The notes beneath the pieces are model-generated. The model did not search any database. It had not been told where the DNA came from and saw only the letters and a list, made by a program, of their open reading frames with translations. Positions 2,721-55,750 of a stretch of 64,000 bases of DNA are shown here, piece after piece. Within the stretch, counting starts at the first letter, position 1. Every line of letters starts with the position of its first letter. Position numbers and translations under genes: made by a program. This DNA comes from Rufibacter latericius (lineage in GTDB: Bacteria; Bacteroidota; Bacteroidia; Cytophagales; Hymenobacteraceae): contig NZ_RJJD01000008.1 in assembly GCF_003721515.1 (NCBI RefSeq), positions 434,001-498,000 of the forward strand. The letters are read 5' to 3'.

Positions 2721-3125
2721 ATGAACTATTGGCTTGTTAAAACCGAACCTGAAAAATACGCCTGGTCTGATTTAGAACGCGATACAAAAACCACCTGGGA
2801 CGGGGTTAGAAACTTCCAGGCCCGCAACAACCTCCAGAAAATGCAGCAGAACGATCTGGTGCTCTATTACCACAGCGTTTCTGAGAAGTCTATTGTGGGA
2901 GTTGCCAAAGTTGCCCAGGAAGCTTTCCAGGACCCTACCACGCCAGAAACCCAATGGGTGGCGGTGACCCTGGTTCCTGAGCAGGCGCTTGCCAGGCCCG
3001 TAACCCTGGATCAGATCAAAAAAGAAGAGCGACTCCAGAACATCGCACTGCTGCGTCAGTCGCGGTTATCGGTGATACCCTTAACGCCAGAAGAGTTTGA
3101 TATTCTGCTCACTATGGGCCAGTAG
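2721..3125 (+). CDS. EVE domain-containing protein
   Basis: A 134-residue protein matching the EVE (PUA-like) family along its whole length: MNYWLVKTEPEKYAWSDL at the start, TTWDGVRNFQARNNLQ around 23-38, then LVLYYHSVSEKSIVGVAKV. EVE domains have a PUA-like fold and are thought to recognise modified bases in DNA or RNA; the human relative is THYN1. The frame is open upstream to 2670, but family members begin at MNYWL, so the ATG at 2721 is chosen. No modification enzyme sits beside it. Confidence 0.92.
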   Translation: MNYWLVKTEPEKYAWSDLERDTKTTWDGVRNFQARNNLQKMQQNDLVLYYHSVSEKSIVGVAKVAQEAFQDPTTPETQWVAVTLVPEQALARPVTLDQIKKEERLQNIALLRQSRLSVIPLTPEEFDILLTMGQ

Positions 3126-3193
3126 CCAGCGTAAAACATCTGGCGCGTTTTGGCGTTTTTAGTGAGTTCCCTGTCATTTCATAAAAACACCTT

Positions 3194-4744
3194 ATGCCCG
3201 CACCCATTAGAAGAAATTCTTGGCGGTACTTGTTTCTCCTGCTCTGCTGGGGCGTGGCCTTCTCTGCCCAGGCCCGTCAGAAAAAAGAGAAAGACAAAGA
3301 GAAGCCTGCCCCTCCTGCCCAGACCCATCGGGCAGAAATAGAGAGCGACTCTTATGAAGATGAACATACGGTGCATGCCTTGCCAGACACGGCCCTGCTG
3401 GTGGTGTCTACCAAACGCAACGGCTGGTTTGGCAAGGATGATTTTGTGCTTACCAAATATGACCGGGAGCTCAAACAACTCTGGCAAACCAAATACGAGC
3501 ACAAGACAAACCACACGCTGCTATTTGTGGCCTCAGAGCGCAAAATGGCCTACCTGCTGTTTTCTACCCCCAGCAGCAAGAAACTGATGCTGCACAAGGT
3601 GAACGCCACTACCGGGGTAGCCACTTTCACGGAGCACACCTTGCCCAGTTCCTACATCAGCATCAAAGAAATGGCGGTCCTGGATGGGCAGGTGTTCCTG
3701 AACGGCCTGGACCGCGATAACCTGAACATGATGCGCCTGGACCCGAACGCGGACGAGATAAAATTGCTGCCCGCCGTTTACGGGATGGAAGACGATCTGG
3801 GGGAGTTCAGGGTAGATACCCTTACCCACGCGGTGGAGTTTGTGGTAGCTGAATCGAATGGCTGGCGGTCAAGGGTGCAGACCAAGCGCCTTAACTCCAA
3901 GGGCGATGTGATTGGCACGTACTTCATCCAGCCCCCTATGGATTACCGGAATGATAACACTCTGCAGGCAGGCCGCCTCACTCCCGGTGACACCCTGACC
4001 AAAATCCTGCTGGGCACGTTTGGGCACCGCACTTCGGTTTTCTCAAAGGGTTTGTTTTCCAGTGATCTGGCGGGCAACGTGCAGTACTTTGATTTCAGCA
4101 AACTGGAGAACTTCTTTGAGTACCTGGGCCCGCGGGCGCAGCGGCGCATGAAAGCCAAATTTGCCCGCCAGGAAGCCAAAGGCAAACCCATGGTGCTGCG
4201 CTACCGCATGTTCCTGCACCCGGTTATGCCGCATCCGCTGGGTTATGCGCTGGTAGGGGAAATTTACTACCCGCAGTACCGAAGCGGCAGCCTCAATCAA
4301 TACACCACCATCACCGGCCGGTACCCAGACCTACGCCAAACCAGAAGCACGTTTGACGGGTATCGGTTTACCCACGCCATTGTCTGCGTCTTTGACAAGC
4401 AGGGAAAACTGCTCTGGGACAACGCTTACAAGCTCAAAAACGAAACCTACCCAGAACTTGCCCCAACCGTAGAAGCCGGCGTGACACCAGAAGGCAATGT
4501 TTCACTGGTTTTCCCCGAGGAAGAATACATCTGGTACAAGACCCTGAAACCAAACGTAGCCATCTCCAACGAAGAGAAGGTGGAGGTGCGCCTAAAAGAC
4601 GAAACAGAGAAAAGGATCTCCAGCAACAGCGAGGGCATCCTGCGGTGGTACGGCAGCAACTTCATTGCCTTCGGGTTCCAGCGCATTAAACCGGAGCACG
4701 GGCAGGCACGCACCGTCTTCTACCTCCAGAACATGGTTTTCTGA
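3194..4744 (+). CDS. Secreted protein of unknown function, paralogue 1
   Basis: A 516-residue protein with a signal peptide (YLFLLLCWGVAFSAQA, about 12-27) and then a Lys/Pro-rich linker. The rest is rich in short beta-strand-like segments (VVSTKRNGW, FVLTKYDREL, LLFVASERKMAYLLF, ACVFDKQGKLLWDN) that suggest a repeated beta-propeller-like exported domain. I do not recognise a named family. The next gene (4972-6525) is a full-length paralogue with many identical blocks, for example LGEFRVDTLTHA, VQTKRLN and GTFGHRT, and the same C-terminus (RTVFYLQNM), so this is a tandem duplication. Confidence 0.85.
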   Translation: MPAPIRRNSWRYLFLLLCWGVAFSAQARQKKEKDKEKPAPPAQTHRAEIESDSYEDEHTVHALPDTALLVVSTKRNGWFGKDDFVLTKYDRELKQLWQTKYEHKTNHTLLFVASERKMAYLLFSTPSSKKLMLHKVNATTGVATFTEHTLPSSYISIKEMAVLDGQVFLNGLDRDNLNMMRLDPNADEIKLLPAVYGMEDDLGEFRVDTLTHAVEFVVAESNGWRSRVQTKRLNSKGDVIGTYFIQPPMDYRNDNTLQAGRLTPGDTLTKILLGTFGHRTSVFSKGLFSSDLAGNVQYFDFSKLENFFEYLGPRAQRRMKAKFARQEAKGKPMVLRYRMFLHPVMPHPLGYALVGEIYYPQYRSGSLNQYTTITGRYPDLRQTRSTFDGYRFTHAIVCVFDKQGKLLWDNAYKLKNETYPELAPTVEAGVTPEGNVSLVFPEEEYIWYKTLKPNVAISNEEKVEVRLKDETEKRISSNSEGILRWYGSNFIAFGFQRIKPEHGQARTVFYLQNMVF

Positions 4745-4971
4745 TCATCTTCTTAGTTTGGGTTCACCTCAGTTTCTTGCCCCTTTTCCTAAACCAACGC
4801 CAAAACCGTTGCACGACTTTGAGGGCTTAAGACGACTTTTGTCTTCCTGCAAGCGCTATAAAAATTTGAGACTTCCTTTTAGGAGCCAAGCACAAATCTG
4901 AAAAGATATGGGCTGGGATGATGACTTTATATTAATTTATAATTATATTAAGTCAGACTAGCTCTTTTTGT

Positions 4972-6525
4972 ATGCGTCTCGTCCCCAGATGTACACATCA
5001 GCCGTACCTCATGCTCCTCCTGCTTTGCTGGAGCATGGCCTTTGCTGCGCAGGCGCGCCAGAAAAACAAAGTCAGGGTAAGGTCGAATCCTCCGGCTCAG
5101 ACCTATCGGGTGGAGGTGGAAAGCAGTCCTTTTGATGACAAACACCTGGTTCATGTCCTACCCGATAGCGGCGTGCTGGTGGTCTCTACCAAGCGCCTTG
5201 GAGGGACTGAAAGGCAGGAATTTAAACTCACTAAATACAACAAAGAGCTTAAACCTGTCTGGAAAACAAACTACGGCCACACGTCAGACCAAACGCTCTT
5301 ATTGGTTGCCTCTGAGCGAAAAACCCTGTACCTGCTGTTTTACGCACTCAACAACCAGAAAGTACTGCTCCATCAAGTAAACAATGCCACGGGTATGGGC
5401 ACAGTGAGTGAGCACACGCTGCCTTCGGCTAGCCTCACCCCCCAAGAAATGAAGGCGTTGGACGGCCAGGTGTTTCTGAACGGGCTGGAGAAGAACAACC
5501 ATACCATCCTGCACCTGAACCCGGCGCAAAAGGAGGTAAAGATTCTGCATGCCTCACTTGGTCTGGAAGAATTAGGAGAGTTCAGGGTAGACACCTTGAC
5601 GCATGCGCTGGAACTTGTGCTAACCGAGTCTAATGGTGCGCGCTCGCGGGTGCAAACCAAACGCCTAAACGCAAAGGGCGAAGTCATAGGCACGTATTTT
5701 GTCCAGCCCCAGATGGAGTTCCGGACAGAAAACACCCTGCAAGGTGCCCGCCTGGCTCCCGGAGATACATTGAGAAAGGTTTTGGTGGGCACTTTCGGGC
5801 ACCGCACTTTTTCTTTCTCCAAGGGTTTGTTCACCAGCCATCTGGGGGGCAATACCAGGTACTTTGATTTTAGCAAGCTCCGGCATTTCTTTGAGTACCT
5901 CTCTCCCAGGAAAGAACGTCGGATGAAAGCGAAATTCGCCCGTCATGAAGCAAAGGAGAAACCGCTTTTGCTGCGGCATCGCGTACTGCTACACCCCGTT
6001 ATGCCGCACCCGATGGGTTACGCCATTGTTGGAGAGGTTTATTACCCGGAATACAAAAACACGGCCCGAAACCTGTACAACGGCGCCTATGGTCGCGAGT
6101 CAGACACGCTGCAATCAGGTAAAAGTCCGTATGATGCCTATCGGTTCACGCATGCCATCGCCTGTGTTTTTGACTGGGAGGGCAACCTTTTGTGGGATAA
6201 TTCCTACCGACTTAAAAACGAAACCTACCAAGAACCCACTTCTATTGTTAAAGCAGGCGTTTCGCCGGAAGGCAATATCACCCTGGTGTACCCCGAGGAG
6301 GAATACATTAGGTACAAAACCCTGAAACCGAACGTTTCTGGCGCCAACGAGGAAAAAGTGGAGGTAAGATTACAGGAAGCCTCTGAAAAACTATACGCCA
6401 GCAATGAAGGCGGGATTCTTCATTGGTACGGAGGTAACTTTGTGGCCTATGGGTTCCAGCGCATCAAACCCAAGCAGGGACAACCCCGCACGGTCTTCTA
6501 CCTGCAGAATATGACGTTTGAGTAA
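4972..6525 (+). CDS. Secreted protein of unknown function, paralogue 2
   Basis: A 517-residue tandem paralogue of the preceding gene, similar from the signal peptide (MLLLLCWSMAFAAQA) to the last residues (RTVFYLQNMTFE). The most conserved parts are the central LGEFRVDTLTHALELV stretch, GTYFVQPQ, GTFGHRTFSFSKGLF and the LRHRVLLHPVMPHPMGYA block. The 227-bp gap before it ends in a very AT-rich tract (about 4920-4960) that probably holds its own promoter, although no clean TAnnTTTG is present. It ends 18 bases from the convergent nhaA stop codon. Confidence 0.85.
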   Translation: MRLVPRCTHQPYLMLLLLCWSMAFAAQARQKNKVRVRSNPPAQTYRVEVESSPFDDKHLVHVLPDSGVLVVSTKRLGGTERQEFKLTKYNKELKPVWKTNYGHTSDQTLLLVASERKTLYLLFYALNNQKVLLHQVNNATGMGTVSEHTLPSASLTPQEMKALDGQVFLNGLEKNNHTILHLNPAQKEVKILHASLGLEELGEFRVDTLTHALELVLTESNGARSRVQTKRLNAKGEVIGTYFVQPQMEFRTENTLQGARLAPGDTLRKVLVGTFGHRTFSFSKGLFTSHLGGNTRYFDFSKLRHFFEYLSPRKERRMKAKFARHEAKEKPLLLRHRVLLHPVMPHPMGYAIVGEVYYPEYKNTARNLYNGAYGRESDTLQSGKSPYDAYRFTHAIACVFDWEGNLLWDNSYRLKNETYQEPTSIVKAGVSPEGNITLVYPEEEYIRYKTLKPNVSGANEEKVEVRLQEASEKLYASNEGGILHWYGGNFVAYGFQRIKPKQGQPRTVFYLQNMTFE

Positions 6526-46992: not shown

Positions 46993-48309
46993 TTATTTCT
47001 TCAGCGGGTTGTTCAGGTAATCTACGGCTAGGTACGCCAGGGTGCGGACGCCTAGTTTAAGGCCGCTTTCATCGATCATGAAGTCTGGGGTGTGGTGGGC
47101 TGGGATTCTTGATACATCCTGGCCTTTGGACATGCCGCCCACGAAGATGAACACGCCCGGTACTTTTTGCTGGTAATAGGCGAAGTCCTCGGCACCGGTC
47201 ACGGCTTTGGTGAGGACCACGTTCTGCTGGCCTGCCACGGTCTGTAACGTTGGGAGGATGTGGGCGGTGAGGGCTTCGTGGTTGTAGGTAATGGGCGTAT
47301 TTTTCACAATCTCCACCGTGGCGGTTGCACCGGCGCTGGCGGCAATCATCTCAGCGGTGCGGCGCAGTTTCTCATGAAGCTGGTCCTGCATTTTGGGGTC
47401 AAGGGCCCGGATAGTGCCAATCATCTCCACTTCCTCGGGGATGATGTTGGTTCTTACCCCGCCGTGGATGGCGCCCACGGTGATTACGGTGGCCTCATTG
47501 GTGAGTTCCATCTGGCGGCTTACAATGGTCTGGATGCCGTTGATGATCTGCGCCGATACCACAATAGGGTCAACGCTCATCCAGGGGTACGCGCCGTGCG
47601 CCTGGCGGCCTTTCACCTTGATCTTGAAGTTATCGGAACTGGCCATGGTGCCCTGCGGACGGTATTTGAGGGTGCCCACCTCGGTGGCGGAGTTGATGTG
47701 CAGCCCGAAGATGGCGTCTACTTTGGGGTTCTCCAGAGCGCCCTGGGCCACCATTACATCGGCACCGCCTTCTTCGCCGGCCGGAGCACCTTCCTCGGCG
47801 GGCTGGAAGATGAACTTCACGGTGCCTTTGAGGTCTTTCTTGTGCTGGGCCAGGATTTCGGCGGCACCCATGAGCATGGCTACGTGCGTGTCGTGGCCGC
47901 AGGCATGCATCACGCCTACTTCCTGGTTGTTGAAGGTGGTGCGCACTTTAGAGGCGAAGGGCAGGCTGTTACGCTCGGTCACGGGCAAGGCATCCATATC
48001 GGCGCGGAGGGCTACCACGGGTCCGGGTTGTCCGCCTTTCAAGATGCCGATGACGCCGGTTTTGGCCACGCCGGTTTTCACCTCAAACCCGAGGCTTTTC
48101 AGGTGTTTGGCCACTTTCTCGGCAGTCTTCACCTCACGGTTGCTGAGCTCGGGGTTCTGGTGGAAGTCGCGGCGCCATTGGATGACCTTCGGCTCTAGTT
48201 TATTCGCGAGTTGGTCTATCTGGGCGTGCAGGTTGGTGGTTTGAGCTTGGGCAATTTGGGTAAGCGCCACCAGTGCTGCTGCCGAGGCTATCTTCTTAAA
48301 AGGATGCAT
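46993..48309 (-). CDS. M20-family amidohydrolase (exported), paralogue 2
   Basis: A 438-residue exported enzyme (signal peptide about 1-22), very close to paralogue 1, with the same opening (IDQLANKLEPKVIQWRRDFH) and motifs MHACGHDTHVAMLMG (Cys137, His139) and FQPAEEGAPAG (Glu172, Glu173). Differences are concentrated in the signal peptide and the area around residues 110-135. With its partner and the TPP enzyme it may form a local module for amide degradation, but nothing shows co-transcription. Confidence 0.92.
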   Translation of the reverse strand: MHPFKKIASAAALVALTQIAQAQTTNLHAQIDQLANKLEPKVIQWRRDFHQNPELSNREVKTAEKVAKHLKSLGFEVKTGVAKTGVIGILKGGQPGPVVALRADMDALPVTERNSLPFASKVRTTFNNQEVGVMHACGHDTHVAMLMGAAEILAQHKKDLKGTVKFIFQPAEEGAPAGEEGGADVMVAQGALENPKVDAIFGLHINSATEVGTLKYRPQGTMASSDNFKIKVKGRQAHGAYPWMSVDPIVVSAQIINGIQTIVSRQMELTNEATVITVGAIHGGVRTNIIPEEVEMIGTIRALDPKMQDQLHEKLRRTAEMIAASAGATATVEIVKNTPITYNHEALTAHILPTLQTVAGQQNVVLTKAVTGAEDFAYYQQKVPGVFIFVGGMSKGQDVSRIPAHHTPDFMIDESGLKLGVRTLAYLAVDYLNNPLKK

Positions 48310-48349
48310 GTAGTTTGGTTATGACGGGTAGTGATAGTTCGCACTCCTA

Positions 48350-48383
48350 TTTTAAGCATAAATTCTGAAAAACAGGGCAAAAT
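48350..48383. repeat. Weak REP-like palindrome copy
   Basis: TTTTAAGCATAAATTCTG is followed by AAAAACAGGGCAAAAT. Degenerate; in the divergent gap between the second M20 gene and the M1 peptidase gene. Confidence 0.4.
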
Positions 48384-48388
48384 CATCT

Positions 48389-48546
48389 GTAGGGGCAATC
48401 CCTTGGGATGGCCTTTTGCTGCTATTTACCTTTAGTAGAAATTTTAACAGCAAACCACACCAATTCTCCTTCCGTTGTTGCGTGTTCTCACCAACAACCA
48501 GAACTGCTTGGCCGGCGCAAGGACAATCTCAAGGGATTGCCCCTAC
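48389..48546. repeat. MITE-like element with 16-bp perfect (about 32-bp imperfect) inverted repeats
   Basis: GTAGGGGCAATCCCTT (48389-48404) is the exact complement of 48531-48546, and the similarity extends inward for about 16 more bases. The arm word matches the one in the centre of the 46775-46971 element. Non-coding. Confidence 0.65.
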
Positions 48547-48587
48547 TTTTAATAATTGTAATTTCAACCGGATTTTAGACTTACCTG

Positions 48588-51536
48588 ATGCCGCTTCGCC
48601 TATTTCTTTCTGTATTGCTTTTGTTTCCATTTCTCGCTTTCGCCCAGCAATCATACTGGCAGCAAGAGGTGAACTATAAAATTGACGTGACGCTGAATGA
48701 TGTGCAGCACACGCTTTCGGGCTCGGAACAGATTGAATATGTGAACCACTCACCGGAAACGCTGACATTCCTGTACTTCCATCTGTGGCCCAACGCCTAC
48801 CAAGACCGGAGCACCGCCTTCGGCAAACAGCAGCTTCTGAATGATGAGGACAGATTTCACTTCGCCCCGAAGGAAGCACGCGGGTTTATTTCAGGGCTGG
48901 ATTTCAAAATAGACGGCCAAAACATAAATTGGGAACTGGATGCGCAAAATCCGGACATCGCGAAGCTCACCTTAAACCAGCCCCTGGCTCCAGGAAGTCG
49001 GATTACCATCAGCACGCCGTTTCAGGTGAAGTTGCCGGATTCTTTTTCGCGGCTAGGGCATGTGGGGCAATCGTACCAGATTTCGCAGTGGTACCCCAAA
49101 CCGGCGGTCTTCGATCCGAAGGGTTGGCACCCGATGCCGTACCTGGACCAAGGCGAGTTCTACTCTGAGTTCGGGTCGTTTGACGTGCGCATCACGCTGC
49201 CGGCCAACTATACGGTAGGCGCGACCGGCGAACTGCAGAACCGAGAGGAACAGGTGCGTCTGGACAGCCTGGCGCAGGTCACCGCCGCCAAGAAGGAATT
49301 CAACGAGGACGACCTGAACTTTCCGCCCTCGGCGACGAAAACCAAAACGCTGCATTACCGGCAAGACCGCATCCATGACTTCGCGTGGTTCGCAGATAAG
49401 CGGTTCAACGTACTCAAAGACCAAGTGACATTGCCGCACTCGAAACGCACTGTCACCACCTGGCTTTTGTTCACCAACAGGCAGGCCGACCAATGGCTGA
49501 AAAGAGCACACGAGATCAACGATGTCGTGTACGCCTACTCTTTGTGGCTGGGTGACTACCCCTACAGTCAGGCCACCGCAGTTGACGCAGCGTTGAGTGC
49601 CGGAGCAGGCATGGAATACCCGATGGTGACGGTCACTGAGCCCGAGGCGATCATCCATGAGGTGGGCCATAACTGGTTTTACGGCATTCTGGGCAGCAAC
49701 GAGCGCGAACACCCCTGGCTGGACGAAGGCATCAACTCATATTATGAGATCAGGACGAAGGCGCTTCGGAATAAGTATGCCGGGATGGTGTCCAGCGAAG
49801 TGAACACCAATGCCTTCGGGAAGTTTTTTGGAGTAGATGATTTGCCACCAACAGCCATTGACAATTCCGCCTATTTGTCGGCGGCCAGTCGGGGATTAGA
49901 CCAACCGGTGACCGCTCCGGCGCAGCAGTTCAGAACCCTTAATTACGGCACCGGCGTTTACCTGAAAACGGCCCAACTATTCCAGTACTTGGAAAAGTAC
50001 CTGGGCACTGCCCGCTTTGACAGCGCCATGCAGGCCTATTATCACCAATGGAAGTTCCGCCACCCGGCACCCGAGGATTTACAGGCCGTTTTGGAGAAAT
50101 CCACGGGAAAGCAACTAAGCTGGTTTTTCAAGGATCTATTACCTTCCACTTCTCTCCCAGATGCCCGTTTGAAAACCGTTAAAACCTCGGGCGGAATCAT
50201 TCAAGCGGTAGTGCAACAAACGGGTAAAATGGCCCTGCCGGTGCAGGTAAGTGCAGTAGATGGAGAGGGCAAAGTGCTGGAATCCCACTGGACTAAACCG
50301 GGCGAAAAAGAGCAGACGGTAACCTTCACCACCACCGCAGAAATTGACCGCATCGTTTTAGATCCTGAGTACGTGTTCCCTGTGCTGGACCGCCGAGACA
50401 ACCAGTACCGTTTAGGGCGTCTTTTCCCGAAAACCGAGTTATTGCAGCTTCGGGCTTTGGTAGGCGTTGACCGCATAGACAAGAAGCAGCTTTTCGTAGC
50501 CCCGGCCCTGGGGTACAATACCTTTGACAAATTTCAGGCGGGAGCGGTGTTCTATAACACCTTTCTCACCGAGCACAAATTCAACTACGTGGTGCTGCCG
50601 ATGTACGCTTTCGGGAGTAATCGGCTTACGGGCTTAGCGGATGTTAGGTACCGGGTGATAGGGCAAGGATCGCTTCGGAAGGTAGAGATGGGCGTGCAGG
50701 GCCAGCGGTTCGCTACGTTCTATACCCTTGTTCCCAGTATTACTTTCCACAATCAGCTTAAAAACCCGACCACTCCGCGGCAACAGCTGACGTTTGCCTG
50801 GCATTTGGTGGAGGATGATTTGTTCCCCGATTTTCAGGCGCCTAGAATCGCTTATCAGCTACTTTCCAAAAATGCCATAAGCGGCACCCAGATTGCCTTT
50901 GACGCCACCATGTTCAGCTATCGCGCTGTTCCTTCCGCTCCTACCACTTTCCCTGGGTTAACGGACCAAGGCCCTACCTATTTCAGCCCGATTCGGTTCA
51001 GGCTTTCCCTGGAGAACTGGCGGGAATATCGTCCTGACAAAGAAATCAGGGTGCGGGGCTTCGTGGGGTTAATGGCCGGAAACAATCAGCTTGGTAGTCC
51101 TTTCCTGCTTGGTTTAGCCGGCAGCCCCGATTACCTGAAGCAAACGCCTTTCTTTAACCGCACCGACATGTACGGATCGGCAAATCCAGCCTCGGCCATC
51201 CGGCAGACCGATCGGCAGGACGGCGGTTTCCGGAATCCGGTGCCGGTGAATAGCCGTGAGTGGATAGCTGCCCTCAACCTCACCGCCGATCTACCCGTGA
51301 CGCCTTTTGCCGTGTACCTTGACTTGGGCCGCGTGCAGGAGCAGAACAAACTTTTTTACGGTACCGGTCTGCAATGGAGTTTCCTTAACAATGCTTTCCA
51401 GATTTACCTTCCGGTGGCGGGCAGCAACTTTGAGAACCATTTCCCCAGAAACTTCAAGGATTTCCGCAACAGCATCAGGTACTCGCTGAACCTGCAAAAG
51501 CTTAACCCTTTCCGGCTGCTGGACGAAATGCAGTAG
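48588..51536 (+). CDS. Secreted M1-family zinc aminopeptidase
   Basis: A 982-residue exported peptidase (signal peptide about 1-20). The M1 catalytic core holds GAGMEYP (339-345) in the exopeptidase motif position, HEVGHNWFYG (His357, Glu358, His361) and LDEGINSYYE with the third zinc ligand Glu380. A C-terminal part (from about 640) is rich in beta strands (RYRVIGQGSLRKVEMGVQGQ) and looks like an outer-membrane barrel-like extension, so the protein may be cell-surface bound; this is inference. It starts 278 bases from the divergent M20 gene. Confidence 0.9.
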   Translation: MPLRLFLSVLLLFPFLAFAQQSYWQQEVNYKIDVTLNDVQHTLSGSEQIEYVNHSPETLTFLYFHLWPNAYQDRSTAFGKQQLLNDEDRFHFAPKEARGFISGLDFKIDGQNINWELDAQNPDIAKLTLNQPLAPGSRITISTPFQVKLPDSFSRLGHVGQSYQISQWYPKPAVFDPKGWHPMPYLDQGEFYSEFGSFDVRITLPANYTVGATGELQNREEQVRLDSLAQVTAAKKEFNEDDLNFPPSATKTKTLHYRQDRIHDFAWFADKRFNVLKDQVTLPHSKRTVTTWLLFTNRQADQWLKRAHEINDVVYAYSLWLGDYPYSQATAVDAALSAGAGMEYPMVTVTEPEAIIHEVGHNWFYGILGSNEREHPWLDEGINSYYEIRTKALRNKYAGMVSSEVNTNAFGKFFGVDDLPPTAIDNSAYLSAASRGLDQPVTAPAQQFRTLNYGTGVYLKTAQLFQYLEKYLGTARFDSAMQAYYHQWKFRHPAPEDLQAVLEKSTGKQLSWFFKDLLPSTSLPDARLKTVKTSGGIIQAVVQQTGKMALPVQVSAVDGEGKVLESHWTKPGEKEQTVTFTTTAEIDRIVLDPEYVFPVLDRRDNQYRLGRLFPKTELLQLRALVGVDRIDKKQLFVAPALGYNTFDKFQAGAVFYNTFLTEHKFNYVVLPMYAFGSNRLTGLADVRYRVIGQGSLRKVEMGVQGQRFATFYTLVPSITFHNQLKNPTTPRQQLTFAWHLVEDDLFPDFQAPRIAYQLLSKNAISGTQIAFDATMFSYRAVPSAPTTFPGLTDQGPTYFSPIRFRLSLENWREYRPDKEIRVRGFVGLMAGNNQLGSPFLLGLAGSPDYLKQTPFFNRTDMYGSANPASAIRQTDRQDGGFRNPVPVNSREWIAALNLTADLPVTPFAVYLDLGRVQEQNKLFYGTGLQWSFLNNAFQIYLPVAGSNFENHFPRNFKDFRNSIRYSLNLQKLNPFRLLDEMQ

Positions 51537-51635
51537 TGAATGAGTAAAGGAAAGCGTGAGAGAAGGAGTGAATGGATGGTTGGGAGAATGGTTTAGAAAG
51601 GATAAAAAAGGCAATATTGTTTTAGCTGAAAGAAT

Positions 51636-51675
51636 GCGGTTTTTCACTTATCTTACAGGAAACAGGCTGAAAACG
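51636..51675. repeat. Weak REP-like palindrome copy upstream of the PPase-like lipoprotein
   Basis: GCGGTTTTTCACTTATCTT is followed by ACAGGAAACAGGCTGAAAACGC. Degenerate left arm, clearer right arm. Confidence 0.4.
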
Positions 51676-51696
51676 CTTCTACCCCTTTCCACGAAC

Positions 51697-52302
51697 ATGC
51701 GCGTCGCTTCACTAAAGAATGGGCAGCTTTGGCTGCTTTTTATGGCTATTCTCTGCCTCAGCTGCAAACCCGATTACCGCGAGTTGCCGGCCATCACCGA
51801 AACCAAGCACTGGCAGGCTGTGGTGGAAACCCCGTCGGGCTCCACCCTGCCGCAGGTCTATGATGCGAAGGAGAAAAAGTTTGTGCCGCAGCTGGAGGCC
51901 GGGCAACCCCGCAAGCTGGAGTTCTTGCCTTATCCCGGCAATGAGGGGTTTATTCCTTCCACCTTGGTAGACTCAGTGCAGGGTCGGCCCGCGGCGCCGT
52001 TGCCGGTGATTATTCTCTGCGACCAGAAAGAACCGGGCACAGTGCTGGAAATTTCGCCCGTGGGCGTGATGGTGCTGGAAAGCGAGGGAGAACTTCGGCA
52101 CCTGATTGTGGCGGTACCGGCCAGGCCCAGTGAACAAACCATTTCGCCCAACTCCTTCAGTGATTTTTCGGCCCGATATCCGGCGGTGAAAAGCATTCTG
52201 GAGCAGTGGTATCTGAACGTGAATCCGCGGCAACCCACCCGTTTATCGGCCTGGAAGAGTGAGGCCTTCGCTGACCAGTTGATTCAGAAGTGGGTGCAGT
52301 AA
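51697..52302 (+). CDS. Pyrophosphatase-like lipoprotein lacking metal ligands
   Basis: A 201-residue lipoprotein (LCLSC lipobox, Cys23). The rest follows the soluble family I inorganic pyrophosphatase pattern: VVETPSGS (42-49, like EIPxGS), LPYPGNEGFIPSTLVD (77-92, like the YPxNYGFI block), the RPxGVM-like SPVGVMVLESEGEL (120-133) and LIVAVP (136-141). However, the Asp-rich metal signature (D-x-D-P-x-D) is replaced by a Gly/Pro-rich stretch (SVQGRPAAPLP), and the second Asp pair and Lys are gone. It looks like an exported non-catalytic relative; any role would be binding of phosphate-containing or other ligands. Confidence 0.75.
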   Translation: MRVASLKNGQLWLLFMAILCLSCKPDYRELPAITETKHWQAVVETPSGSTLPQVYDAKEKKFVPQLEAGQPRKLEFLPYPGNEGFIPSTLVDSVQGRPAAPLPVIILCDQKEPGTVLEISPVGVMVLESEGELRHLIVAVPARPSEQTISPNSFSDFSARYPAVKSILEQWYLNVNPRQPTRLSAWKSEAFADQLIQKWVQ

Positions 52303-52334
52303 GTTGAGCGTTGTAGCATATAATTAAAATAATC

Positions 52335-53138
52335 ATGGCTTCAGAGAAGATCCATATTGTATTTGGAGAAACTGCTGAATTGACTCTGCTTTCCATTAAA
52401 GAGATGACTGCAGATGTTGATTCTGTGGTAAGCTTGAATGATGATCTGAGGGTTGGGCCTATTAATTTAGGCTCATTAGATGGCAGGGTAGAAAGACAGA
52501 ATTGGGTAACTAGTAATCTGCCTTGCAAAGAAGATGCTGCTTACCTAAGGTCCTACGTTACCGGCGATTTTGACAAAATCCAAAGCATAAGAGATAATTC
52601 AAAGGATAAAGCGGAAATATACATCTGGTGCGGAAGAACCACCTCTGAAAGACTTGCCACCGCAAGGCTAGTCTTTGAGCTACAAGGTTACTTCAGCAAT
52701 CTTACCATAGCAGATATTCCTAAAAATGGCAACATCGCAGAGAGTCTAAGTGTCATGAACCCAGAGCAGGTACATCTAATTCATAAATACTTTAAAAAAA
52801 CAGACCAGGAGGAATACGGGAAATGGGTGACTATGTGGGCCCGCCTAAAAAGTGAAAATAGTTTAATGAGAGTAGCCCGAGCCGATGGGGTGATTGAGTC
52901 AAAGGAGGTTTCTTATTTCGATGACACACTCCTTTCACATTGCAAAGAAGAACTTCTGAAGGCTGCCAGGATTGTCGGTGAATCGCTGGTAGATATTTGG
53001 TTTGAAGCTAGTGATTCTACCCTCAACTGGCGATTGGTACAATTAGTAAAAAGCGGAGAGTTAGAAGTTGATGGCAAGCTAAATTGCCTTAGAGAGTATA
53101 AAGTAAAACGTGCCACTACAAAAACTAAACAGCCTTAA
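52335..53138 (+). CDS. DUF1835 domain-containing protein
   Basis: A 267-residue cytosolic protein. The N-terminal DUF1835 part begins EKIHIVFGETAELTL and carries SLNDDLRVGPINLG (about 34-47), the family signature. The C-terminal half is helical and fits the DUF3658 partner domain common after DUF1835. The function is unknown; the family is scattered and often near stress or mobile genes. Its GC content is lower than that of the flanking genes. It begins 30 bases after the lipoprotein gene. Confidence 0.82.
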   Translation: MASEKIHIVFGETAELTLLSIKEMTADVDSVVSLNDDLRVGPINLGSLDGRVERQNWVTSNLPCKEDAAYLRSYVTGDFDKIQSIRDNSKDKAEIYIWCGRTTSERLATARLVFELQGYFSNLTIADIPKNGNIAESLSVMNPEQVHLIHKYFKKTDQEEYGKWVTMWARLKSENSLMRVARADGVIESKEVSYFDDTLLSHCKEELLKAARIVGESLVDIWFEASDSTLNWRLVQLVKSGELEVDGKLNCLREYKVKRATTKTKQP

Positions 53139-53242
53139 AATACCGCATAGCAGGAAGGTTATAAGGCTGCTTTCTGAAAACCGGCGCAGAAACGCCTGCC
53201 ACTTTCGCCGGCGGTTTTCAAACTCTTTTTCCTAAAGTCGCC
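53130..53242. repeat. Cluster of REP-like palindromes upstream of pgi
   Basis: CAGCCTTA (53130-53137) pairs with TAAGGCTG (53162-53169); the copy 53159-53194 (TTATAAGGCTGCTTTCTG then AAAACCGGCGCAGAAACG) overlaps it, and a weaker copy follows at 53210-53242 (GGCGGTTTTCAAACTC...CTAAAGTCGCC). Competing stems are possible. Confidence 0.55.
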
Positions 53243-53280
53243 ACAATTCCTAACTTCGCTCTCCATTGACCTGAACTTAA

Positions 53281-54948
<1,668 letters not shown>

Positions 54949-55054: not shown

Positions 55055-55750
55055 ATGAATGGTTTAGAGAAGCTACTTGATCAGTGTGAGAAGAATATAG
55101 ATTTCTACACAAAGCATCTTGATAGCTTAAGGAGAAACATTGCACTTCAAGAAGAAGCAAAAAGGTTGCTGAATACAATAAATCCGGAACAAGATTATGT
55201 CGACTTTAAAGAAATGGAGCAGTTTAACAACTACAATGGCTACATCACTATTTCGACTTTGGATTTATCAGTTAATCTCATGAATTTGGTTAAAGCTAAA
55301 ACAGACTGGGAGAAAATATTTTTTATCAAATACTCATATCTGATAATTTATGAAACCATCGACAAATTAAAACCTTTAAAAGGAAAATCAGGAATACAAA
55401 CTATAGTTGAAAGCAACTATCCAGATTTAGAAGGAAGCCTTAAAAGTTTATTTCAAGACATAGACGCTTTCAAGAAAGCAACTGATTATAAAAAGATTGA
55501 GAATACCCGAAACTATACAGCAGGACACATTGAAAAAAGTTTGAAAAAATATTACGACACAGCCTATAAGTTAGATGGCGAGGAAGCCGCAAGTTTCATA
55601 AACCAATTCTTAATCATTTTAAACAAAGCACTATTTATAACTCGGGATTATGCGGTTATAGCGAACAAAAATCAAAAAGAGAAGAGCAGAGATACAAATG
55701 TTAGACTAAACAATTTGTTAGATGAAATTCAAAGTTTCATCAGAAAATAA
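55055..55750 (+). CDS. Low-GC helical protein, unknown function
   Basis: A 231-residue protein predicted to be mostly alpha-helical and charged (MNGLEKLLDQCEKNIDFYTK, ALFITRDYAVIANKNQKEK). No signal peptide or transmembrane segment. Codons and bases are clearly more AT-rich than those of the genes on both sides (many AAA, ATA, TTA), which suggests lateral acquisition. I recognise no family. It is flanked by a terminator and an AT-rich gap, with no toxin partner or mobile gene visible. Confidence 0.75.
   Translation: MNGLEKLLDQCEKNIDFYTKHLDSLRRNIALQEEAKRLLNTINPEQDYVDFKEMEQFNNYNGYITISTLDLSVNLMNLVKAKTDWEKIFFIKYSYLIIYETIDKLKPLKGKSGIQTIVESNYPDLEGSLKSLFQDIDAFKKATDYKKIENTRNYTAGHIEKSLKKYYDTAYKLDGEEAASFINQFLIILNKALFITRDYAVIANKNQKEKSRDTNVRLNNLLDEIQSFIRK

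Follow-up and report, generated by a model that had tools for sequence, protein, structure and literature searches.

In this work, we found that a gene of Rufibacter latericius encodes an apparently exported protein of family I inorganic pyrophosphatase (PPase) ancestry in which 11 of 13 catalytic residues, including all five presumed metal-binding aspartates, are replaced, and that loss of the active site is common to 120 copies of this gene in Hymenobacteraceae. The gene (51697-52302, forward strand; 201 aa) lies in the window, i.e., the whole 64,000-nucleotide stretch of contig NZ_RJJD01000008.1 that was analyzed. Pseudoenzymes keep the fold of an enzyme but have lost its catalytic function, and soluble pyrophosphatases are familiar as enzymes of the cytoplasm. 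With a probability of roughly 0.78, we interpret the protein as a pseudoenzyme, namely, an exported pyrophosphatase lipoprotein whose active site was lost once and whose scaffold has been kept for binding. The ancestor would have been a family I pyrophosphatase already exported as a lipoprotein, and its metal- and phosphate-binding residues would have been lost once, at the base of Hymenobacteraceae. The folded scaffold would have been retained, with a periplasm-facing lipid anchor in the outer membrane, and the protein would no longer hydrolyze pyrophosphate and would work by binding another protein or ligand.

Translation confirmed the open reading frame, with its ATG at 51697, where the first-pass annotation had placed it. 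Residues 42-200 (51820-52296) match the Pfam profile of inorganic pyrophosphatase (PF00719; 54.6 bits against a cut-off of 23.5, E = 1.4e-14), a phmmer search of the PDB recovered PPase chains (best E = 1.1e-10), and orthologs in nine Rufibacter/Sabulibacter genomes share 73-91% identity with the window protein, which together rule out a chance open reading frame. The NCBIfam PPase profile gave 33.4 bits, far under its 200-bit cut-off. An AlphaFold2 model, for which the input alignment held 54 relatives (eight of them catalytic), has a mean pLDDT of 91.2 and a pTM of 0.87. Every title among the 50 Foldseek matches listed for this model is an inorganic (pyro)phosphatase (best E = 1.2e-11, TM 0.78/0.81), and VIA-align superposed it on 2prd with a Z score of 23.4 (rmsd 1.7 over 161 residues) and on E. 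coli 1faj with a Z score of 21.9. The predicted fold is therefore that of a pyrophosphatase, as the first-pass annotation had proposed; the contrary outcome that it had named, a fold unlike PPase, did not appear with AlphaFold2, Foldseek, or VIA-align. The profile match and the predicted fold together identify the protein as a family I inorganic pyrophosphatase by descent.

For the active site, we scored 13 catalytic positions (E20, K29, E31, Y51, Y55, D65, D67, D70, D97, D102, K104, Y141, and K142), which we take to be correctly numbered after E. coli; we likewise take D65, D67, D70, D97, and D102 to be the metal-binding aspartates and K29, Y55, K104, Y141, and K142 to be phosphate-binding residues. 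Asp115, Asp117, Asp120, Asp152, Tyr93, and Lys56 of yeast PPase presumably correspond to positions in this set. These yeast residues are named in a passage of a PPase review (PMC11210485). In our alignment, the window protein keeps two of the 13 residues (E20 and Y51) and none of the five aspartates, and the phosphate-binding K29, Y55, K104, Y141, and K142 have become P, E, L, V, and N. The canonical PPase encoded in the same genome has all 13. Compared with catalytic relatives, the D-x-D-P-x-D metal loop with D65, D67, and D70 is replaced by SVQGRPAAPLP (residues 93-103; 51973-52005), which lies opposite GGDGDALD in the catalytic relative L065. The second acidic block with D97, D102, and K104 reads ESEGELRHL (residues 128-136; 52078-52104), and the Tyr-Lys pair (Y141 and K142) reads Val-Asn (52219-52224). 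When the catalytic lipoprotein L065 is aligned with the window protein, STLMDSAKGGDGDALDVLLL stands opposite STLVDSVQGRPAAPLPVIIL and KLLDHGEKDDKII opposite VLESEGELRHLIV. R43 was excluded from the residue count because gap placement shifts by one residue there; Arg72 (in QPRKLEF) may correspond to it. The first-pass annotation had read both the replaced metal loop and the ESEGEL segment from the sequence, and the alignment agrees with it on each, as it does on the missing metal-binding aspartates; the clear set of acidic ligands that would have spoken for the opposite did not appear. Its description of the protein as probably non-catalytic gains support from the two residues kept of 13 and from the complete canonical PPase in the same genome. 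The binding or structural role that it suggested is a hypothesis here as well.

The loss extends to all 120 distinct family copies compared, which rules out a sequencing error or an isolated mutation. These copies, which exclude a canonical PPase (L227 in genome G132), were set against 34 relatives outside Hymenobacteraceae (L064, L065, L068-L073, and L134-L160 without L139, which repeats L068). Eight of these relatives belong to a second family of the order, and 26 come from a search of the class, in which 395 genomes gave 30 long matches with a clear gap in score (148.8 vs. 76.2 bits); of these 30, three are from Hymenobacteraceae and one duplicates a gene that the set contained before. Rows that repeat genes (23 loci, then L130, L131, and L139) were left out, as were four long but low-scoring matches in genomes of other families (G166, G293, G330, and G335; 23-29 bits), and L134 and L135, which are identical domains from two genomes, are counted twice among the 34. 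The family copies keep zero to seven of the 13 catalytic residues (zero in 4, one in 19, two in 47, three in 13, four in 17, five in 17, six in 2, and seven in 1; n = 120) and zero to three of the five aspartates (zero in 76, one in 38, two in 2, and three in 4). By comparison, all five aspartates are present in 34 of the 34 outside relatives, which keep 11 to 13 residues (11 in 10, 12 in 4, and 13 in 20), in a set whose profile searches could miss degraded relatives. When Glu is accepted for Asp, acidic residues occupy none of the five places in 34 family copies, one in 51, two in 29, and three in 6.

The same pattern is found in column variability. Mean entropy at the 13 catalytic columns is 2.51 in the family (vs. 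1.50 at the other columns) and 0.15 outside (vs. 1.82), and this shift was equaled by none of 10,000 random column sets; family copies share ancestry, so the comparison is a description rather than a test on independent samples. Columns that are near-fixed in the family but not outside include Arg143 (91%; Asp in 59% of outside relatives) and Trp186 (98%). Q40, E118, Y161, and E189 are also among the conserved residues. Four copies from one genus, g4 (L048, L193, L195, and L196), keep five to seven of the 13 residues and three aspartates. From their sequences, these copies may be intermediates and could conceivably bind some metal still.

The outside relatives represent a separate PPase branch, found in several families of the class, that includes many lipoproteins with a complete active site. 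A Cys occupies the lipidation column in 23 of the 34, and some catalytic members (e.g., L138 and L150) have no signal peptide, which means that export is not shared by the whole of the wider branch. Four catalytic members that were scanned (L064, L136, L142, and L150) score far under all NCBIfam PPase cut-offs. At locus L073, an M20 peptidase gene (3444-5513) immediately precedes the gene for a catalytic exported PPase. A related M20 peptidase gene is found in the window two genes before the pseudo-pyrophosphatase gene (46993-48309, opposite strand); this link may be due to chance.

In a maximum-likelihood tree of 68 proteins, which sampled 28 of the 120 family copies, all 28 formed one clade (100/100) nested in the catalytic relatives; the tree program warned of joined long branches, namely, the rows of a third PPase type described below, and of two rows of odd composition. 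The family clade was retained (SH-aLRT 99) in a quick tree from which the 13 catalytic columns and the third PPase rows had been removed. The likely history suggested by these trees is that the site was lost a single time and then drifted.

The genes in Rufibacter are under purifying selection. Between the window gene and its nine orthologs, NG86 estimates are 0.063-0.177 for dN and 0.82-2.07 for dS, with dS values above 1 near saturation; two closer ortholog pairs gave dN of 0.010 with dS of 0.317 and dN of 0.007 with dS of 0.254, and the dN/dS ratio is 0.03-0.11 across 12 Rufibacter/Sabulibacter pairs. For five of the same genomes, the neighboring phosphoglucose isomerase gene has dN of 0.038-0.067 and dS of 0.73-0.94, and an M1 peptidase gene has 0.13-0.18 and 1.18-1.77, respectively. 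The window protein is therefore constrained, to a degree between those of phosphoglucose isomerase and the M1 peptidase.

An ortholog profile search found the pseudo-pyrophosphatase in 120 of 150 genomes of Hymenobacteraceae; 122 genomes match at E ≤ 0.001, but G054 and G132 show the canonical enzyme only. By genus, the gene is present in 15 of 16 genomes of g1 (the window's genus), 2 of 2 of g2, 49 of 50 of g3, 8 of 8 of g4, 8 of 8 of g5, and 38 of 66 of g6. Its absence from 30 of the 150 genomes indicates that the gene is dispensable, with the absences soft because the profile searches scored few candidates per genome (up to 11, 8, or 5). A PF00719 protein above the cut-off occurs in all 150 genomes and a canonical PPase (193-211 bits) in 149 of them. 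In G039, which is 78% complete, we found a PPase of a third type (121 bits) and the pseudo-pyrophosphatase, and the canonical enzyme was not found. In five lipoprotein-carrying genomes, PF00719 by itself recovers the canonical enzyme and not the lipoprotein (G091, G119, G133, G143, and G145).

The third type of PPase occurs in some family genomes (L111, L113, L114, and L118; about 1354-2214) and scores 116-138 bits with PF00719. Its second acidic block is unusual (NDR for DDK), and the two copies included in the tree form a long separate branch. As a candidate for an exported catalytic PPase inside Hymenobacteraceae it was rejected, because these four copies have no signal peptide. A further PPase gene in two pieces is found in another genome (G003:C1:6135128-6135588) and is likely a broken copy.

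The window protein begins with an apparent signal peptide (51697-51765) that has a hydrophobic stretch and a lipobox-type end at Cys23 (51763-51765), where lipidation would occur. This Cys is present in 120 of the 120 family copies. The lipobox reported in the first-pass annotation thus holds for the cysteine but is atypical at position -3, where the window protein has Cys rather than Leu, Val, or Ile (C-L-S-C). The apparent signal peptide and the conserved Cys23 support the assignment as a lipoprotein. For Bacteroidetes, a surface-export signal in which the cysteine is followed closely by a basic or polar residue and then two acidic ones is described in a passage of a study that defined it for Capnocytophaga, Bacteroides, and Flavobacterium, and not for the order of the window (PMC5080379). 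Among the 120 family copies, positions +2 to +6 contain one acidic residue in 91, none in 23, and two in 6, and the residues found most commonly behind the cysteine are Q/K-T-D-Y. In the SusD lipoproteins of the window genome (33 matches in the genome; of 30 loci, 19 fit the parsing pattern and 11 do not), at least two acidic residues follow the cysteine in 17 of the 19 parsed. The proposal that the protein is surface-anchored gains no support from this comparison (at most one acidic residue in 114 of 120 copies), which uses a signal defined outside this order. Since a second acidic residue is mostly absent in the family and usual in the parsed SusD lipoproteins, a periplasm-facing position on the outer membrane appears more likely.

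Directly upstream on the same strand is a gene for an M1-family metallopeptidase (48588-51536; 982 aa; PF01433) with an apparent signal peptide and an HEVGH-18-E zinc motif, of which H357, E358, H361, and E380 are invariant in nine aligned proteins. Its AlphaFold2 model is poor (pLDDT 62, pTM 0.45) and has 14 long strands at residues 648-945; this C-terminal, strand-rich part is perhaps an outer-membrane barrel. Pfam gave no match on the C-terminal part, and the M1 aminopeptidases that lead the 50 Foldseek matches listed (TM 0.31-0.35 over the query) support the peptidase part only. In a search that scored five candidates per genome at E ≤ 1e-80 (taking the larger of two pieces in G063), both genes were found in 61 genomes (g1, 12; g2, 2; g4, 7; g5, 8; and g6, 32), and in all 61 they are adjacent on one strand with the peptidase first. 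For 42 of these 61 genomes, the peptidase match stops 46-95 bases before the lipoprotein match, which begins close to the lipidation site, so the two frames nearly touch or overlap; the gap between the genes in the window is 160 bases. An operon could not be argued from promoter and terminator predictions, for which hits in 48300-53400 are near the expectation from shuffled sequence (4 vs. 4.4 and 10 vs. 7.0).

A full-length M1 peptidase occurs in 61 of the 120 genomes with the pseudo-pyrophosphatase and in 15 of the 30 without it, which rules out an obligate pair. In genus g3, 49 of 50 genomes carry the lipoprotein, and none shows the full-length peptidase. At three g3 loci (L074-L076), which have no peptidase, the lipoprotein gene has neighbors that are also seen in other genera, namely, genes for ribosomal protein L19, a tRNA methyltransferase, a PTPS-family protein, and GTP cyclohydrolase I. 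Ten of the 15 peptidase-only genomes were inspected over roughly 3 kb behind the peptidase gene (L119-L128); nine, which belong to g6, have none of the usual neighbors. In the peptidase-only genome G054, phosphoglucose isomerase is found behind the peptidase and the lipoprotein gene is missing. The unlinked presence of the two genes thus makes the pair look like an old shared arrangement and not an obligate complex.

Several other features were observed at these loci. In Rufibacter sediminis (L001), the M1 peptidase is in two overlapping frames (2808-5799; 256 and 771 aa), reflecting a frameshift or a sequencing error. A DUF1835/DUF3658 gene is located directly 3' of the pseudo-pyrophosphatase gene in the window (52335-53138) and has no counterpart at the same place in L001, where phosphoglucose isomerase comes next, which suggests a local insertion in the window. 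A 231-aa open reading frame (55055-55750) resembles HEPN_Apea weakly, with a score below the threshold (E = 0.019).

The conserved gene order raises the question of whether the lipoprotein is an accessory of the M1 metallopeptidase, attaching on the periplasmic side to the enzyme or to the outer-membrane part that it is presumed to have, and helping its assembly, anchoring, or regulation. Adjacency in 61 of 61 genomes from five genera and frames that nearly touch or overlap in 42 of them are in its favor. However, the two genes show neither co-occurrence nor co-loss, g3 maintains the lipoprotein with no full-length peptidase, the window has a 160-base gap, and the common order may descend from a single ancestral arrangement. 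We consider such a role possible but on the unlikely side, and the partnership is only a lead that gene order suggests. An extended version, in which an exported pyrophosphatase would have become a periplasmic module dedicated to binding, acting together with an outer-membrane M1 peptidase as the pyrophosphatase-fold subunit of a protein machine in the cell envelope, seems unlikely to us.

The remodeled pocket might also bind a small ligand, such as a phosphate ester, nucleotide, polyphosphate, or similar compound, which would make the lipoprotein a periplasmic binding or sensing protein. Because E20 is retained in 110 of the 120 family copies and N54 in all of them, part of the old pocket persists in the family, and the acidic loop has turned neutral or basic (RPAAPLP). 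Nevertheless, catalytic positions other than E20 (12 of 13) rank 100th to 172nd of the 172 columns in family conservation, which misfits one conserved ligand and leaves this reading decidedly unlikely. Continued activity as a pyrophosphatase or other hydrolase through a different set of residues is highly improbable. Such activity would be compatible with the intact predicted fold and with the four members that keep three aspartates, but none of the five aspartates remains in 76 of the 120 copies, and where 85% or more of the family agree, the residue is mostly glycine, proline, or a hydrophobic or aromatic one; no conserved His, Asp, or Cys besides the lipidated Cys is found among these columns. 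Finally, we give almost no credence to a decaying gene without function. Absence from 30 of 150 genomes could be read in this way, but the dN/dS ratios of 0.03-0.11, the lack of internal stops in all 120 family matches, and the presence of Cys23 in every copy argue against it.

A pseudoenzyme derived from an exported pyrophosphatase can be compared with known systems. With the family I soluble PPases of E. coli (1faj) and Thermus (2prd), the window protein shares homology over residues 42-200 and the same predicted fold (Z scores of 21.9-23.4); it differs in being a putative exported lipoprotein, in the replacement of 11 of 13 catalytic residues, and in scoring far under the NCBIfam cut-off. 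The secondary PPases from other families of the class are the closest relatives in the tree, most have the lipidation-column Cys, and the block before the metal loop is similar (STLMDSAKGGDGDALD in L065 and STLVDSVQGRPAAPLP in the window protein), but they keep the five aspartates and 11 to 13 catalytic residues, and some have no signal peptide. Like pseudoenzymes in general, the window protein would combine a retained enzyme fold with lost catalysis. The inactive phosphatase PTPRU (PMC7320164), one such example, is a different protein in a different cellular setting. A literature search that covered titles and abstract openings, with most subscription journals outside its coverage, returned no report of an exported or non-catalytic pyrophosphatase. 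Among related papers, a work on a bacterial secretome (PMC12055684) has "inorganic pyrophosphatase" once, the PPase review (PMC11210485) has no mention of "lipoprotein" and one passage on an N-terminal sequence proposed to target a plant PPase, and a work on the Bacteroidota BAM (PMC12578637) has no mention of "pyrophosphatase." What is new here is the active-site loss across a family, probably with a single origin, together with the many sister proteins that appear exported and catalytic as judged from sequence.

These findings carry a warning for annotation, as many such proteins pass the Pfam cut-off and would be named pyrophosphatases though they are probably unable to work as one. They also provide a clean natural experiment, with apparently one loss, catalytic sisters, possible intermediates in g4, and genomes without the gene. 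An exported PPase branch is found in several families of one class, and in one of these families the active site appears to have been given up in a protein that selection still maintains.
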